From Hyphomonas sp. (GTDB taxonomy: Bacteria; Pseudomonadota; Alphaproteobacteria; Caulobacterales; Hyphomonadaceae), in assembly GCA_002700305.1 (NCBI GenBank), contig PACZ01000036.1:1-46955 (forward strand): a DNA stretch of 46,955 bases, given 5' to 3'. The stretch's first letter is position 1, and each line of letters starts with the position of its first letter. The notes under the pieces were generated by a model, which was given only the letters and a program-made list of their open reading frames with translations, was not told the origin of the DNA and ran no database searches. The translations under genes and the position numbers were made by a program. This document shows positions 31,813 through 36,695 of the stretch, in pieces.

Positions 31813-31884
31813 ATGTCCCCACACACGCCAGATTCCCTTGATTTGCGCCAGTCCGGGCGCGGAAACGGGTGCTGCGCAGCGTGA
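31813..31884 (+). CDS. Possible 23-residue leader peptide upstream of ccmA
   Basis: AGGAG at 31802-31806, six bases before an ATG at 31813, introduces a 23-codon frame MSPHTPDSLDLRQSGRGNG followed by CCAA and stop. Its TGA overlaps a GTG at 31881 in the form GTGA, so the ribosome finishing this peptide could begin ccmA. The peptide itself resembles no known family. Codon use is not distinctive. It may be a translated leader that tunes ccm expression, or just an accident of a good ribosome site; both are possible. Confidence 0.4.
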   Translation: MSPHTPDSLDLRQSGRGNGCCAA

Positions 31885-32453
31885 CGGATACCCTGCTCTC
31901 TGCCACCGGCCTCGGCATGATTCGGGGGGAACGGGTGTTATTCACCGGCGTCGGCCTGTCGGTGGCGCCGGGCGAAAGCCTCGTCCTGCGCGGCTCGAAC
32001 GGCGCGGGCAAAACGACCCTGCTGCGCATCCTGGCAGGGCTGACCCGGCCGGAGGCTGGCGATGTGACCCGCAACGGCCTGCACCACTGGTTCGCGCACC
32101 GCGAAGGGCTGAAGCCGCACGAGACCCCGCGTACACATCTTGGACTCTGGGCGAAGGCCTGGGGCTCGGACGCCGATCTGGACTCAGTGCTCACCCAAAT
32201 GGGACTGAAACGCCCGGCAGACGTGCCCGCACGCTATCTTTCCGCCGGGCAGCGCCGTCGCACAGCCCTTGGCCGTCTTTTGCTGGAGAAACGGCCGATC
32301 TGGATGCTGGACGAACCCTACACCGCCCTTGATGCCGAAGGCCGCGACCTGGTGCTGGAGCTGATCGAGGATCATCTGAAATCCGGCGGCGGCGTGATTG
32401 CGGCCATCCATGGCGAGTCCGGCTTCGTCCCATCGAATGAGGTCGTGTTGTGA
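31881..32453 (+). CDS. ccmA: Cytochrome c biogenesis ABC exporter ATPase CcmA
   Basis: A 190-residue ATPase of the haem-handling System I pathway, which supplies haem for periplasmic cytochromes c. Walker A is GSNGAGKTT, the signature LSAGQRRR and Walker B WMLDEP. The likely start is the GTG at 31881, coupled to the leader frame; a GTG twelve bases earlier (31869) gives four more residues and lacks a ribosome site. The end overlaps ccmB (GTGA). Other ccm genes (E, F, H) are not in this window. Confidence 0.92.
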   Translation: MTDTLLSATGLGMIRGERVLFTGVGLSVAPGESLVLRGSNGAGKTTLLRILAGLTRPEAGDVTRNGLHHWFAHREGLKPHETPRTHLGLWAKAWGSDADLDSVLTQMGLKRPADVPARYLSAGQRRRTALGRLLLEKRPIWMLDEPYTALDAEGRDLVLELIEDHLKSGGGVIAAIHGESGFVPSNEVVL

Positions 32454-33115
32454 GGCCCGCGCCGATCCTCTCCGCTTTCCGCCAGGCACTGGGCGAAGCC
32501 TGGGCCGGCGGGGCAGGCGCGCTGCTGCCGCTTGGCTTTTTTGCTGGCGCTGCCGTGCTCGTGCCGCTCGGCATCGGCACCGACCCGGCAACGCTGCGTG
32601 CCGTGGGGCCCGGCATTCTCTGGGTTGCGCTTGCGCTCTCCAGCCTCGTCACGCTGGAACGGATCTTCCAGGCGGATACAGAAGACGGTGCGCTGGACCT
32701 GTGGCTGCAGACGGGCGCGCCTGCCTCCGCGATTGCCGGGGCCAAGACGTTTGCACACTGGCTGGCCGCGGGCCTGCCGCTTGCGCTGCTCTCCCCGCTC
32801 CTTGCGCTGATGTTCCAGGCCGAAGCCTCCGCTGACCTCCTGCGCAATGCAGCGCTCTACGCCCTTGGCGGACTTGCCTTCTATTTCTGGGGCGGTGTCG
32901 GCGCAGCCCTGTCAGCGACGGTGCGGCGAGGCGGCCTGTTGATCAGCCTCATCGCCCTGCCATTGTATGTCCCGACCGCCATTTTCGGAGCGCTCTCGAT
33001 GACCCATGGCCCCGGCAGCGAAAGCGCGCCCCTGTTCCTGGCGGCCTCCACCCTGTTCGCGCTGGCCGTCGCGCCGTTTGCCATGGCTGCAGCCTTGCGC
33101 TTGGCGGCAGACTGA
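32450..33115 (+). CDS. ccmB: Cytochrome c biogenesis membrane protein CcmB
   Basis: A 221-residue permease with six predicted membrane helices, partner of CcmA in the haem release step of CcmC/CcmE. It begins with a GTG whose first bases are shared with the ccmA stop, a sign of coupled translation. The sequence runs as expected for CcmB, for example FRQALGEAWAGG at the N-terminus and SADLLRNAALYAL in the middle. A gap of 20 bases separates it from ccmC. Confidence 0.9.
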   Translation: MRPAPILSAFRQALGEAWAGGAGALLPLGFFAGAAVLVPLGIGTDPATLRAVGPGILWVALALSSLVTLERIFQADTEDGALDLWLQTGAPASAIAGAKTFAHWLAAGLPLALLSPLLALMFQAEASADLLRNAALYALGGLAFYFWGGVGAALSATVRRGGLLISLIALPLYVPTAIFGALSMTHGPGSESAPLFLAASTLFALAVAPFAMAAALRLAAD

Positions 33116-33135
33116 GGGAGCGGTATCGCAAGTCC

Positions 33136-33867
33136 ATGTTTTCCTGGTTCGCAAACCCCCTCCGTTTCATGCGCCTGTCGAACTGGCTGGCCCCGCTTTG
33201 CTATGCGCTGGCCGTGCTGCTGATCGGCTGGGGCCTGTGGCAAGGCCTCTGGGTGGTTCCGAAGGACGAATATCAGGGCGGGGACATCATGCGCGTGATG
33301 TTCCTGCATGTGCCGGCCGCATGGCTTGCCATGGCAAGCTACATGGCGATGGCGGTGATGAGTTTCATCTGGTTCATCTGGCGCCATGAAGTGGCTGACA
33401 TCGCGGCGAAATCCATCGCCCCGCTGGGCGCAGTCTGGACGGCGATCTGCCTGGCCACCGGATCGATCTGGGGCAAGCCGACCTGGGGCACCTGGTGGCA
33501 ATGGGATGACGCCCGGATGATGTCGGTCCTGTTCATGTTCTTCCTCTTCCTCGGCTACATGGCGCTGCGCGCCTCGATGGATACCCGCCAGAAGGCGGCC
33601 CGGGCGGGCGCGATCCTCGCCATGGTGGGCGCGATCAATGTGCCGCTGATCAAATTCTCCGTGGACCTCTTCACCTCTCTACACCAGGATTCCAGCGTGC
33701 TGACCGCAGACGGCCCGAAAATGGCCGCCGTCTATCTCTGGCCCCTGCTGGCCAGCGGTCTTGGCCACACCCTGCTCTTCGCTGGCCTGACGCAGACGCT
33801 GATGCGCGCCGAGATCTGGGACCGGCGCACCGCACAGGCGAATGCAAAACTTATGGCGGAGGGCTGA
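33136..33867 (+). CDS. ccmC: Haem exporter / haem-handling protein CcmC
   Basis: A 243-residue, six-helix membrane protein that loads haem onto CcmE. The tryptophan-rich WWD domain reads WGTWWQWDDARMMS, with the histidine-bearing loops FLHVPAAWL and SLHQDSS on either side. Known family members have WDAR, so the WDDAR here is one residue longer; whether this is a lineage trait or an oddity is unclear. It follows ccmB by 20 bases and ends six bases from ccmD. Confidence 0.9.
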   Translation: MFSWFANPLRFMRLSNWLAPLCYALAVLLIGWGLWQGLWVVPKDEYQGGDIMRVMFLHVPAAWLAMASYMAMAVMSFIWFIWRHEVADIAAKSIAPLGAVWTAICLATGSIWGKPTWGTWWQWDDARMMSVLFMFFLFLGYMALRASMDTRQKAARAGAILAMVGAINVPLIKFSVDLFTSLHQDSSVLTADGPKMAAVYLWPLLASGLGHTLLFAGLTQTLMRAEIWDRRTAQANAKLMAEG

Positions 33868-33873
33868 GCAATC

Positions 33874-34038
33874 ATGCTGCCGGACTTCGACAAGAATGCC
33901 GTCTTCATCTGGGCCTGCTATGGCATCGGCGCCGTCAGCCTGGGCCTGACCATCCTGATCGTCACCCTGCGGGCGAAAGCTTCGCAGGCAAAAATGCAGC
34001 GGGCTGAAGCGCGCCTGCGCGGAGATGACGCAGCATGA
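33874..34038 (+). CDS. ccmD: CcmD
   Basis: A 54-residue protein with one membrane helix (ACYGIGAVSLGLTILIVTL) and a basic C-terminal tail. In known systems CcmD stabilises the CcmABC complex during release of holo-CcmE. The ATG at 33874 follows the ccmC stop by six bases, and the stop overlaps the first ATG of ccmG (ATGA at 34035-34038). It is shorter than many automatic gene finders report. Confidence 0.85.
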   Translation: MLPDFDKNAVFIWACYGIGAVSLGLTILIVTLRAKASQAKMQRAEARLRGDDAA

Positions 34039-34556
34039 AACGCTGGCTCGCGGCCATTCCGGTCACTGCACTCGTCCTGTTTGCGGGCCTGGCCGGCTGG
34101 GAACTCAGCCATCCGGCGAAAGGCGATTTCGAGCGCGTCTCCCGCACAGCGCCGGACCGGAGCTTCGAACGGCTGGAAGGCGGCACGCTGAGTTTCGCGC
34201 CCAGTCCGACCGGGGAGACGATCGCCGTGAACCTGTTTGCGAGCTGGTGCGCGCCCTGTGAGGCCGAGCATCCGCGTCTGACAGCGCTGGCGAAGGCCCA
34301 TCCGGGGCAGGTTTATGGGGTGCTGTACAAGGATGCACCGGCCAATGGACGGAAATTCCTGAACGAACTTGGCAATCCGTATGCCGATATCGTGCTGGAT
34401 CCGGATGGTCAGGGCGGTCTGGACTTCGGCCTGACAGGTGTGCCGGAAACCTTTGTGATCTCAGCCGATGGCGAGATTCTGGAGCATATTGCCGGACCGC
34501 TCGATGCGGACGCGGTGAAACGGGTGGGCGAGGCGCTCAGCGCGCCCCGCCCCTGA
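34035..34556 (+). CDS. ccmG: Thiol:disulfide interchange protein CcmG/DsbE
   Basis: A 173-residue, membrane-anchored thioredoxin that keeps apocytochrome c cysteines reduced. A membrane helix spans residues ~6-22. The active site WCAPC has Cys72 and Cys75, and GVPETF is the cis-proline loop, of the usual form in CcmG. Its ATG lies inside the ccmD stop. The stop is 15 bases from the convergent MarR gene. Confidence 0.94.
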   Translation: MKRWLAAIPVTALVLFAGLAGWELSHPAKGDFERVSRTAPDRSFERLEGGTLSFAPSPTGETIAVNLFASWCAPCEAEHPRLTALAKAHPGQVYGVLYKDAPANGRKFLNELGNPYADIVLDPDGQGGLDFGLTGVPETFVISADGEILEHIAGPLDADAVKRVGEALSAPRP

Positions 34557-34571: not shown

Positions 34572-35279
34572 TTACTTCTTCTTGGCTTTACGAGCGGCCG
34601 GCTTCTTGGCCGGAGCTTTTTTCACGGCCGGTGCTTTTGCAGCAGCAGCGGCTTTCTTCGGTGCAGCCTTCTTAGGAGCGGCTTTTTTCGGAGCGGCCTT
34701 CTTGGCGGCCGGTTTTGCGGCAGCTTTCTTCGGTGCAGCGGCCTTTTTGGCAGCCGGCTTCTTGGCCGGTGCTTTTTTCGCAGCAGGTGCTTTCTTGGCC
34801 GGAGCCTTCTTCGGTGCAGCAGCCTTCGGCGCGGCTTTCGGAGCCGGGGCCGGCTTGGCTTCTTCTTCCGTCAGGCCGACGAGGCCGGACATCAGGGCGT
34901 CCTGCTTCACTTTCGCGAGGCCGGAGAAGAGTGCAGCGTCAGCAGCCTGAACAGCCGGAAGGGCCTTATCCAGGGCTTTCTTGCCTTTTGCCGTCAGGGA
35001 GACAGACTTGGCACGCGCATCGGTTTTCGAAGCAGCACGCTTGATCAGACCGCTGGTTTCCATACGGGCGACCATGTCTGCGAGGGTCGAACGGTCGATG
35101 CCGGTGGCATTGACGAGATCCGACTGGCTGGCGCCTTCATTGCCGTCCAGGGCTGCGAGCAGCGAGAACTGGCGCAGCGTGATGCCGGCGGAGCGGAGCG
35201 CCTTGGCGCTGTGGTTTGCAGCAGCCTGCTGAGCGCGGTGCAGCAGGTGGCTTGGCGAAGCATTGAGATTGAATGACAT
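34572..35279 (-). CDS. MarR-type DNA-binding protein with histone-H1-like Lys/Ala/Pro tail
   Basis: A 235-residue protein in two parts. Residues ~1-135 are a winged-helix MarR domain (TLRQFSLLAALDGNEGASQSDLVNATG, IDRSTLADMVARMETSGLIKRAA, cited in part) with the usual dimerising helices. Residues 141-235 consist almost entirely of Lys, Ala and Pro in KKAAPKKA and AKKAPA units (only Val219 and Arg230 differ), a composition shared with eukaryotic linker-histone tails and tails of mycobacterial HupB. It would bind DNA without sequence preference. The gene is transcribed alone. The tail-coding DNA is a GC-rich imperfect repeat of the units AAGAAGGC/GCAGCA type, so slippage or assembly error in length is possible. 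Confidence 0.85.
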   Translation of the reverse strand: MSFNLNASPSHLLHRAQQAAANHSAKALRSAGITLRQFSLLAALDGNEGASQSDLVNATGIDRSTLADMVARMETSGLIKRAASKTDARAKSVSLTAKGKKALDKALPAVQAADAALFSGLAKVKQDALMSGLVGLTEEEAKPAPAPKAAPKAAAPKKAPAKKAPAAKKAPAKKPAAKKAAAPKKAAAKPAAKKAAPKKAAPKKAAPKKAAAAAKAPAVKKAPAKKPAARKAKKK

Positions 35280-35403
35280 TTTCGTTTACCTTTCGAGGGA
35301 TGACTTAACTAGATCGGCGGCCGACCCACCCACAAGCCCCCTAAAGCAGAGGCCCGTGTGCGGATCAATACCCCTCTCTTAGAACGCGATTGGATAACAA
35401 CAG

Positions 35404-35955
35404 ATGACGGATCAATTATCGAATCCTTTCATTTCGCCCCTTTTTCACATGGAAACGCCCGAAGGAGACGATAAATTGCGGCGTGTTTGCGCGCATTGCC
35501 GGTTTATCGACTATGTGAACCCAAAAATCGTTGCCGGGTCGGTTGTGACCAAAGATGACCGGATTTTACTCTGCCGGCGCGCAATCGAGCCCCGAAAAGG
35601 TTACTGGACCCTCCCGGCCGGATTCATGGAAGAAGGGGAAACGGTCGAGGAAGGTGCACGGAGGGAAGCCCAGGAAGAAGCGTGCGCGGATATCCGGATC
35701 CAACAGTTACTCGCCGTTTACTCTGTTCCCCGCATTGCGCAGGTTCAGGTCATGTTCCGGGCGGAGCTGATGTCTGACATTGCCGCCGGGCCGGAGAGTG
35801 AGGAAGTCGGATTATTTGCCTGGAAGGACATACCTTGGTCGGAACTCGCTTTTCCGACTGTCATCTGGGCGCTGACCCACTATGCGGAAACCCGGCACCT
35901 GCCCGCCTTTCCGCCCTTCGCCAACCCTCCGGGAACTGAAAAGCTCACCCATTAG
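35404..35955 (+). CDS. Nudix hydrolase
   Basis: A 183-residue hydrolase of nucleoside-diphosphate-linked compounds. The Nudix box runs from Gly73 to Ala95 (GFMEEGETVEEGARREAQEEA) with the REUxEE core complete, and a CxxC (Cys29, Cys32) before IDYVNPK resembles the N-terminal zinc-like element in NADH pyrophosphatase-type Nudix enzymes. The substrate is uncertain (ADP-ribose, NADH or another). The gene is convergent with the septation-protein gene; the stops are five bases apart. Confidence 0.88.
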   Translation: MTDQLSNPFISPLFHMETPEGDDKLRRVCAHCRFIDYVNPKIVAGSVVTKDDRILLCRRAIEPRKGYWTLPAGFMEEGETVEEGARREAQEEACADIRIQQLLAVYSVPRIAQVQVMFRAELMSDIAAGPESEEVGLFAWKDIPWSELAFPTVIWALTHYAETRHLPAFPPFANPPGTEKLTH

Positions 35956-35960
35956 GCGAG

Positions 35961-36620
35961 TTAGCGCTCGTTAGGGTGCGTCTGCATGTGCTTCAGGGTA
36001 TAGGGCGTGTTCGCAAGGGCGAACAAAAAGCCAATGACGATGTTGCCCATCTTCCAGTTCGCCCAGGCAGCCTCACCGAAGGCCTGCCACACCACGATGT
36101 TCCATATCGCCATTGCGATAAAGTATAGGCCCCAACGGATAGCCAGCACACGCCAGGCATAGTCCGGGAGATGAAAAAGCTCGTTGAACAGCATTTTCCA
36201 AATATTGCGGCCAACAGCGAGACCGCCGAAAATCGCACCGGCAAACATCAGATTGATAATGGTGGGCTTCAGGAAAAGCAGAAGCTTGGAATGAAACGCG
36301 ATGCCCAGAACGCCGAATACACCGATCAGGCTTGAGGAAACGAGCAGGAATGGCGGAATTCTCTGTTTACGGATCAGTTTCATGCCAATCACGGCAGTCG
36401 TTGCCACGATGAGAACACCCGTGGCCCAGAAGAGTGCGTTTTCCTTGGAAAACAACCCCTCCTCCGGAAAGCGCAGCATGACGTTGTAGATGACAATGAA
36501 GGCCAGCGTCGGGCCGAGTTCGGTCCAGATTCCCCCGGCACGTGCGGCAGCATCCTTGACGTTCGCCTGCTGCGGGTCATCGTCCGGGTGGGGCGCGGTC
36601 TTCTGATCAAACTCGGTCAT
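35961..36620 (-). CDS. Septation protein A (IspZ/YciB family)
   Basis: A 219-residue inner-membrane protein with five or six helices. It has the YciB/IspZ layout, with a first helix ending near FVIVYNVMLR-like sequence and the signature region IRWGLYFIAMAIWNIVVWQAF, followed by NPYTLKHM at the end. The family influences cell division and envelope integrity. The ATG at 36620 is preferred over earlier in-frame ones because AGGAAG is close to it; the N-terminal ~30 residues are polar and cytoplasmic. Confidence 0.82.
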   Translation of the reverse strand: MTEFDQKTAPHPDDDPQQANVKDAAARAGGIWTELGPTLAFIVIYNVMLRFPEEGLFSKENALFWATGVLIVATTAVIGMKLIRKQRIPPFLLVSSSLIGVFGVLGIAFHSKLLLFLKPTIINLMFAGAIFGGLAVGRNIWKMLFNELFHLPDYAWRVLAIRWGLYFIAMAIWNIVVWQAFGEAAWANWKMGNIVIGFLFALANTPYTLKHMQTHPNER

Positions 36621-36695
36621 GTACTTCCTACGCACCATCCGTGCTTGCGGTTTTGTTAAAACCGCTGTCGCACGAAATGTCACAGACGGCGAGTC

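Follow-up and report, generated by a model that had tools for sequence, protein, structure and literature searches.

Is a bacterial transcription regulator that ends in a histone-like tail a regulator of particular sites, a general chromosome-coating protein, or an ordinary regulator with an inert appendage? This question is raised by a gene of Hyphomonas sp. that lies in the window (the whole stretch of DNA analyzed here, 46,955 nucleotides long) and encodes a MarR-family domain followed by a tail composed almost entirely of lysine, alanine and proline. Eukaryotic linker histone H1 has the same layout, a winged-helix globular domain and then a Lys/Ala/Pro tail; the likeness is one of architecture, with no sequence relation shown, and MarR proteins are dimers whereas H1 is not. 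The initial annotation, made from the sequence alone, proposed that the MarR half provides targeting or dimerization, that the tail provides broad binding by charge, and that the protein may be a nucleoid-associated regulator rather than a simple repressor.

The features of the locus are as follows.

34572..35279, minus strand: MarR-family protein with Lys/Ala/Pro tail, ATG-initiated open reading frame of 235 aa, stop codon within the coordinates
34860..35279, minus strand: MarR winged-helix domain, residues 1-140 (Pfam, structure model, structural matches)
35079..35105, minus strand: residues 59-67, TGIDRSTLA, leading into the DNA-recognition helix (domain alignment)
34575..34859, minus strand: Lys/Ala/Pro tail, residues 141-235 (composition count)
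35280..35403, no strand assigned: 124-bp region separating the divergent MarR and NUDIX genes
35354..35368, minus strand: TTGATCCGCACACGG, conserved block upstream of the MarR gene, weak candidate operator (CCG-N4-CGG dyad)
35404..35955, plus strand: NUDIX hydrolase with Zn-ribbon, divergent neighbor kept in many related loci (Pfam, synteny)
35961..36683, minus strand: YciB/IspA family protein (PF04279), conserved neighbor (Pfam, synteny)
31869..34556, plus strand: cytochrome c maturation genes (ABC ATPase, CcmB, CcmC-type, thioredoxin-like), convergent conserved neighbors (Pfam, synteny)

Results

The MarR domain

The N-terminal half is a winged-helix MarR domain, as first annotated: both Pfam families match well above their cut-offs (MarR_2, PF12802, at residues 32-90, E 1e-14, 54.9 bits versus 27; PF01047, 44.5 bits versus 24.6), and a structure model of the monomer (mean pLDDT 90.6) has the MarR fold and is backed by structural matches. 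The model places helices at residues 9-31, 35-44, 52-59, 63-75, 97-117 and 123-138, and strands at 79-83 and 91-95. The solved chains of MarR regulators of the PcaV, HosA, BpsR and CouR type are 143-195 aa long, compared with 235 aa here.

The domain is strongly conserved where DNA is expected to be read. Across 38 aligned domains (45-89% identical to that of the window), 23 positions are invariant, including T59, G60, D62, R63, S64, T65 and A67 of the recognition-helix region (T-G-x-D-R-S-T-x-A), H11, R15 and Q18 of helix 1, and T34 and R36 at about the start of helix 2. The recognition helix of the tailed protein resembles those of ordinary, specific MarRs. R15 is aligned with the arginine of the H-L-A-R-R motif of PcaV, which we take to be a ligand-binding residue in that protein; a small aromatic acid as the ligand here would be a guess from the fold and this conserved first-helix arginine. 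SlyA and CouR touch the DNA backbone in the region of T34 and R36, where helix 2 begins (PMC4737184). Over the first 135 codons, one same-species genome and two same-genus genomes differ from the window at 7, 11 and 10 codons, respectively, and all of these differences are synonymous; seven further Hyphomonas loci show 1-18 amino-acid differences in the domain.

The Lys/Ala/Pro tail

Residues 141-235 consist of 43 Ala, 33 Lys, 17 Pro, one Val (residue 219) and one Arg (residue 230), which agrees with the annotated count of about 95 residues with Val219 and Arg230 as the only exceptions. The lysines are encoded by 19 AAG and 14 AAA codons and the alanines by 17 GCC, 16 GCT, 8 GCA and 2 GCG, and no exact DNA repeat within the tail exceeds 17 bases, compared with 15.8 ± 3.0 after random synonymous recoding (191 of 500 recodings reach 17). 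Because the Lys and Ala codons are mixed and the longest repeat is no longer than recoding gives, slippage or an assembly error is an unlikely source of the tail; with tails also present in the records of other databases, we rejected this artefact. Tandem Repeats Finder reports repeats with periods of 15, 30 and 45 bases (65-88% match); such periods could arise simply from the pattern of the protein. On the opposite strand, an Ala/Phe/Gly-rich open frame (window 34582-34950, plus strand) runs antisense to the tail and mirrors its Lys/Ala codons.

The initial annotation had held that absence of the tail from re-sequenced relatives, as with an assembly or slippage error, would overturn the chromatin-protein idea. 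We looked for such absence and found tails mostly present, with few tailless relatives. Among the matches listed, a basic end (at least 8 K/R and a net charge of at least +4 in the last 25 residues) was found in 114 of 120 homologues of the window protein (2361 matches in all) and in 107 of 120 homologues of a Caulobacter-like relative (4788 in all); the 6 and 13 without it apparently mix cut or frame-broken records with real differences.

Within its own genome the tail stands alone. There are 21 PF12802 matches, 17 of them over the cut-off, and only the window protein has a Lys-rich end: its last 50 residues hold 19 K/R and no D/E, versus 2-11 K/R in the others (the frame of listed length was taken for each). 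A search of this genome with the tail only found no other gene at E 0.01, under a composition correction that may mask other Lys-rich proteins. The Histone H1-like nucleoprotein HC2 family (PF07382) reaches 16.6 bits over the tail, below its cut-off of 40.

Distribution and gene neighborhood

Closely similar tailed proteins occur in sister species and across the order. Searching with the domain alone at E 1e-20 gave one match apiece for 98 of 105 family genomes, the protein's own included; at 1e-15, 255 of 299 order genomes had a match, and one of these had two. About 50 genomes of these two samples gave none. When 26 of them were re-searched with a profile, 19 yielded nothing at 1e-14 and seven only matches of at most 63 bits, none of them ortholog-like, indicating that the gene is truly absent from some genomes or genera. 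In the class sample, the profile matched 147 of 387 genomes at 1e-18, a mixture of likely orthologs (about 170-205 bits) and ordinary MarRs, and the phylum sample of 397 genomes gave 22 matches at 1e-32, with nothing strong outside the class (one match, 115 bits).

The homologues listed include records named Caulobacter that carry a tailed relative. Where a source name is given among the matches listed, it is mostly MarR family or winged helix-turn-helix regulator. At least five Caulobacter-like relatives (P0123, P0171, P0189, P0219, P0233) are called 'temperature-dependent positive regulator of motility' by JGI, a name that seems to come from automatic annotation.

The gene had been described as having no adjacent partner. 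This does not hold: a NUDIX gene lies divergently 124 bp away, and the pairing is kept in many, not all, related loci. In 14 of 20 loci from other genera of the family, the gene immediately upstream is NUDIX, and 16 have YciB within five genes. Among 15 loci from other orders, 14 have NUDIX no more than five genes away (13 of them as the first gene); at that range YciB, CcmC and CcmB each occur in 10 loci, and an FtsY-like gene occurs in 9. By the same count the pairing is looser elsewhere in the order: NUDIX is first in 8 of 20 loci of families f3 and f5, and in only 2 of 20 loci of f2, f4 and f5, where YciB lies within five genes in 11. (FtsY, MtaB and aconitase neighbors were named by sequence inspection, not by family search.) At least two core neighbors are present at 88 of 112 C-tailed loci counted (41/58, 38/45 and 9/9); since some contigs end nearby and ORF calling was crude, such counts are lower bounds. 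The divergent pair of Zn-ribbon NUDIX and tailed MarR genes (window 34572-35955) thus recurs over several alphaproteobacterial orders, and this common position supports orthology and vertical descent.

Tail variation, gain and loss

Tails were collected from 30 family loci, 20 loci of a further search, 40 order loci, 40 class loci from the top of the list and 80 named loci, many of the latter being from the same organisms as other loci. A profile found the MarR domain in 214 of 216 loci. The set compared here comprises 175 distinct domains, after exclusion of the copy in the window, four frames that were incomplete, fragments of the domain and duplicates of the same sequence. A C-terminal tail was called basic if it had at least 10 K/R and a net charge of at least +5; by this definition 138 of the 175 are tailed, one has a basic N-terminal extension instead (L184), and 36 have neither.

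The architecture search across Alphaproteobacteria that the initial annotation had suggested bears out the tail as the usual state of close relatives: of 144 domains scoring at least 175 bits, 138 are C-tailed (with tails of 23 to 860 residues), one is N-tailed and five are untailed, while none of the 31 domains below 175 bits has a tail (three of the 31 are further MarRs from the genome that contains the window). The cut was picked after the scores were seen, and some near relatives without a tail fall just below it, namely L140 and L159 (170 and 173 bits, like tailless L137) and L191 (172 bits, with a short basic end), a sister of L184 that adjoins a NUDIX gene. The five tailless relatives above the cut are L094 (with a short basic end), L137, L149, L169 and L174. 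Since three of them (L094, L169 and L174) sit in the conserved neighborhood, the tail can evidently be lost.

Trees gave a check that does not depend on the 175-bit cut. A quick tree built from 69 thinned rows has a single branch (SH-aLRT 96) that takes in every tailed row, 44 with C-terminal tails and one N-terminal, along with ten untailed rows; tail labels change 7 times on it, compared with 20.9 for shuffled labels. A larger FastTree run gave 6 tail-state changes versus a mean of 34 for shuffled labels, a clustering that near-copies assist; both trees contain unresolved forks, and the larger one also long branches. The simplest reading of these sequence data, though not a proven one, is one old gain of the tail and several losses.

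What the tails keep is charge. Over the 138 tails, the K+R fraction ranges from 0.23 to 0.61 (median 0.38) and, with a coefficient of variation (CV) of 0.18, is the least variable of the five components measured (Ala 0.42, D+E 0.60, Pro 0.63, S+T 0.79); 131 of the 138 have a net charge of at least +5 in their last 20 residues. The letters change: motifs shift from KKAPA to DKKKKK, KRKTA or KKDKK between relatives, and insertions and deletions separate even close ones. At the extreme, a 1000-aa MarR protein (L182:3995-6994, genome G460) carries a tail of about 860 residues of K/R/A/T/P, in which 57-base units repeat with a match of 68-75% and longer periods with one of 65-82%; because these units have diverged, the long tail is not a fresh expansion. 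Of its same-genus relatives, L183 runs off the contig end after 531 aa and another is 191 aa in total. In L184 (genome G449) a predicted Lys/Ala-rich stretch stands before the MarR domain, not behind it, and the adjoining NUDIX gene belongs to the same cluster as elsewhere. Charge is kept while letters, length and, in one case, the end of the protein that bears it vary; selection thus seems to favor a flexible basic arm over any particular sequence. Many related bacteria have one gene each for a closely related tailed protein, so that the tail looks, at the sequence level, like an old, maintained feature and not a sequencing accident.

A candidate operator

A short-dyad scan upstream of 80 thinned loci ranked CCG-N4-CGG first (33 of 80, versus 5.9 expected from shuffles), a dyad that had been spotted by eye before the scan. 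Outside the Hyphomonadaceae, it is found at 14 of 35 loci, compared with 3.5 from shuffles and with a fraction of 0.216 in real upstream regions of other long ORFs (n=259); within the Hyphomonadaceae, where shared ancestry is a caveat, it is found at 7 of 16, compared with 0.191 (n=94). The longer form TCCG-N4-CGGA is clearer in proportion (5/35 versus 0.019, and 2/16 versus 0/94 upstream of other long ORFs). The block TTGATCCGCACACGG, or a close form with its middle changed, stands upstream in Hyphomonas and Henriciella-type loci. Because real upstream regions shrink the excess that shuffles made look strong, we regard the CCG-N4-CGG block upstream of the MarR gene as only a weak candidate operator.

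Across seven genomes, TTGATCCG-N4-CGG has 5 to 26 sites each (94 in total, including the gene's own), compared with 0 or 1 per genome for the same pattern read backwards. Most inspected sites fall inside ORFs, and the excess may therefore be coding bias. No regulon emerged from the nine promoter-like sites inspected: seven are inside ORFs predicted to be coding-like, two of them weakly so, L272 overlaps a predicted ORF start, and L265 lies between genes.

Codon use

Codon adaptation of the MarR domain was compared with that of background genes in six genomes (the same-species genome G055 and five others), using rough GC3 gene calls and 10-24 reference genes a genome. Against 18-23 background genes, the domain ranks at the 77th-94th percentile in four of them and at the 25th and 30th in the other two. 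G055 and the others took the place of genome G000 because the ribosomal S3 C-terminal family has no match in G000, an assembly rated 99.93% complete, whereas a same-species genome has one; the missing match is possibly an assembly gap.

Discussion

The reading that we favor, and to which we give somewhat better than an even chance, is that the protein is a mostly single-copy, vertically inherited MarR regulator whose winged-helix dimer sits at specific sites while its Lys-rich tails hold flanking DNA. We observe the two-part architecture itself, its concentration in one lineage, the conservation of the recognition helix, and the keeping of tail charge over tail sequence. In this scheme, the winged-helix domains would dimerize as MarR proteins do, presenting two DNA-reading helices and two basic arms; the dimer would find specific sites, with its own divergent promoter most likely among them; the two long tails, presumably flexible, would grip flanking DNA by charge; and the grip would slow dissociation or spread binding onto neighboring DNA beside a specific site.

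Lys-rich tails on DNA-binding proteins are a known kind, and the long basic tail found here on a DNA-binding domain places the protein among those of the TopA, HupB and AlgP type, a kind and not a homology family. Actinobacterial TopA, HupB/HupS, Ku and HrdB likewise carry basic C-terminal repeats, on folded domains that differ from this one. As reviewed in PMC7398561, Lys repeats on DNA-binding proteins are reported to make their complexes with DNA more stable: C-terminal Lys repeats keep Streptomyces TopA on DNA, their loss raising dissociation and lowering processivity; the Lys-rich ends of Ku and HupB are required for DNA interaction; and Caulobacter crescentus TopA has Lys repeats too. 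In our view the nearest precedent in kind for a tailed MarR is Har, a Porphyromonas homologue of Fur and thus not a MarR, whose Lys-rich tail is lineage-wide like the one here: according to PMC4222909 it is found only among Bacteroidetes Fur homologues, and the authors removed it for DNA-binding assays to avoid non-specific interactions. By analogy with the tails of TopA, Ku, HupB, AlgP and the Fur homologue, a non-specific hold beside a specific site may be expected of the tail.

The chief rival is an abundant nucleoid-associated protein in which the MarR half clamps DNA as a dimer, with compaction by the tail in the manner of linker histone H1. A winged-helix fold is also found in TrmBL2. 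That archaeal DNA-binding protein is thought to shape chromatin (PMC4877046), and the single copy in most sampled family and order genomes, the tail of up to 860 residues with diverged repeats still in frame, and codon use above the 75th percentile of the background in four of six genomes all fit such a role. They are offset by low codon use in the other two genomes, by a recognition helix like that of ordinary MarRs with a first-helix arginine aligned with PcaV, and by the 26 re-searched genomes (of about 50 matchless ones) that gave no ortholog-like match, and we consider this reading unlikely. Of the initial proposal, the two-part layout and the notion of binding by charge agree with the data, basic charge being kept across the lineage; the further step to a nucleoid-associated protein is not supported yet, because the codon data are mixed, the recognition helix resembles those of ordinary MarRs and tailless orthologs occur in the same neighborhood.

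Could the tail be nearly neutral low-complexity sequence that drifts and does little? Its wide variation in length (23-860 residues) and letters, the indels between close relatives, and the five tailless relatives above 175 bits, with more just below, are what such drift would leave. Drift accords poorly, however, with charge that is kept while letters change, with the few tail-state changes on the tree (6 versus a mean of 34, near-copies helping), and with the lack of tails among the more distant MarRs inspected, and we hold it to be improbable. We give still less credence to a tail that binds another polyanion (polyphosphate granules or RNA) or tethers cargo to the nucleoid, DNA regulation being a separate matter. 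The AlgP and PhaF tails, for which such roles are proposed, speak for it; against it stands the folded half, a MarR domain, which binds DNA in known members. In AlgP and PhaF of Pseudomonas the C-terminal region is disordered and K/P/A-rich, with 154 aa of repeats in AlgP; according to PMC9239181, K/P/A repeat peptides of AlgP bind DNA, and the protein associates with polyP granules, whose spacing depends on its C-terminal region. Granule positioning and nucleoid association are the work proposed for these proteins, and the N-terminal half of AlgP is a putative helical domain, not MarR.

Among titles and abstract openings of the open-licence literature on tails, histone-like and nucleoid proteins in connection with MarR or Lys-rich sequences, we found no MarR family with such a tail. 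Nor did we meet there a mostly single-copy lineage of tailed MarRs in which some members have lost the tail, one bears it at the N-terminus and one extends it to 860 residues.

MarR regulators tend to have a patchy distribution. The regulator favored here, by comparison, is a single gene in most sampled genomes, often in one neighborhood, with a histone-like tail, which points to a basic role. Its natural variants (tailless, with the Lys-rich stretch at the other end, or with an 860-residue tail) offer a ready comparison of the effects of a basic tail on a transcription factor, and because records named Caulobacter carry the tailed gene, a genus with good genetics is at hand. It is also conceivable, though we think it doubtful, that the protein is an old alphaproteobacterial counterpart of the linker histone, built independently, in which the MarR winged helix reads specific sites and tails of as many as 860 residues coat or bridge the surrounding chromosome; if true, this would join site-specific control and chromatin compaction in one protein.
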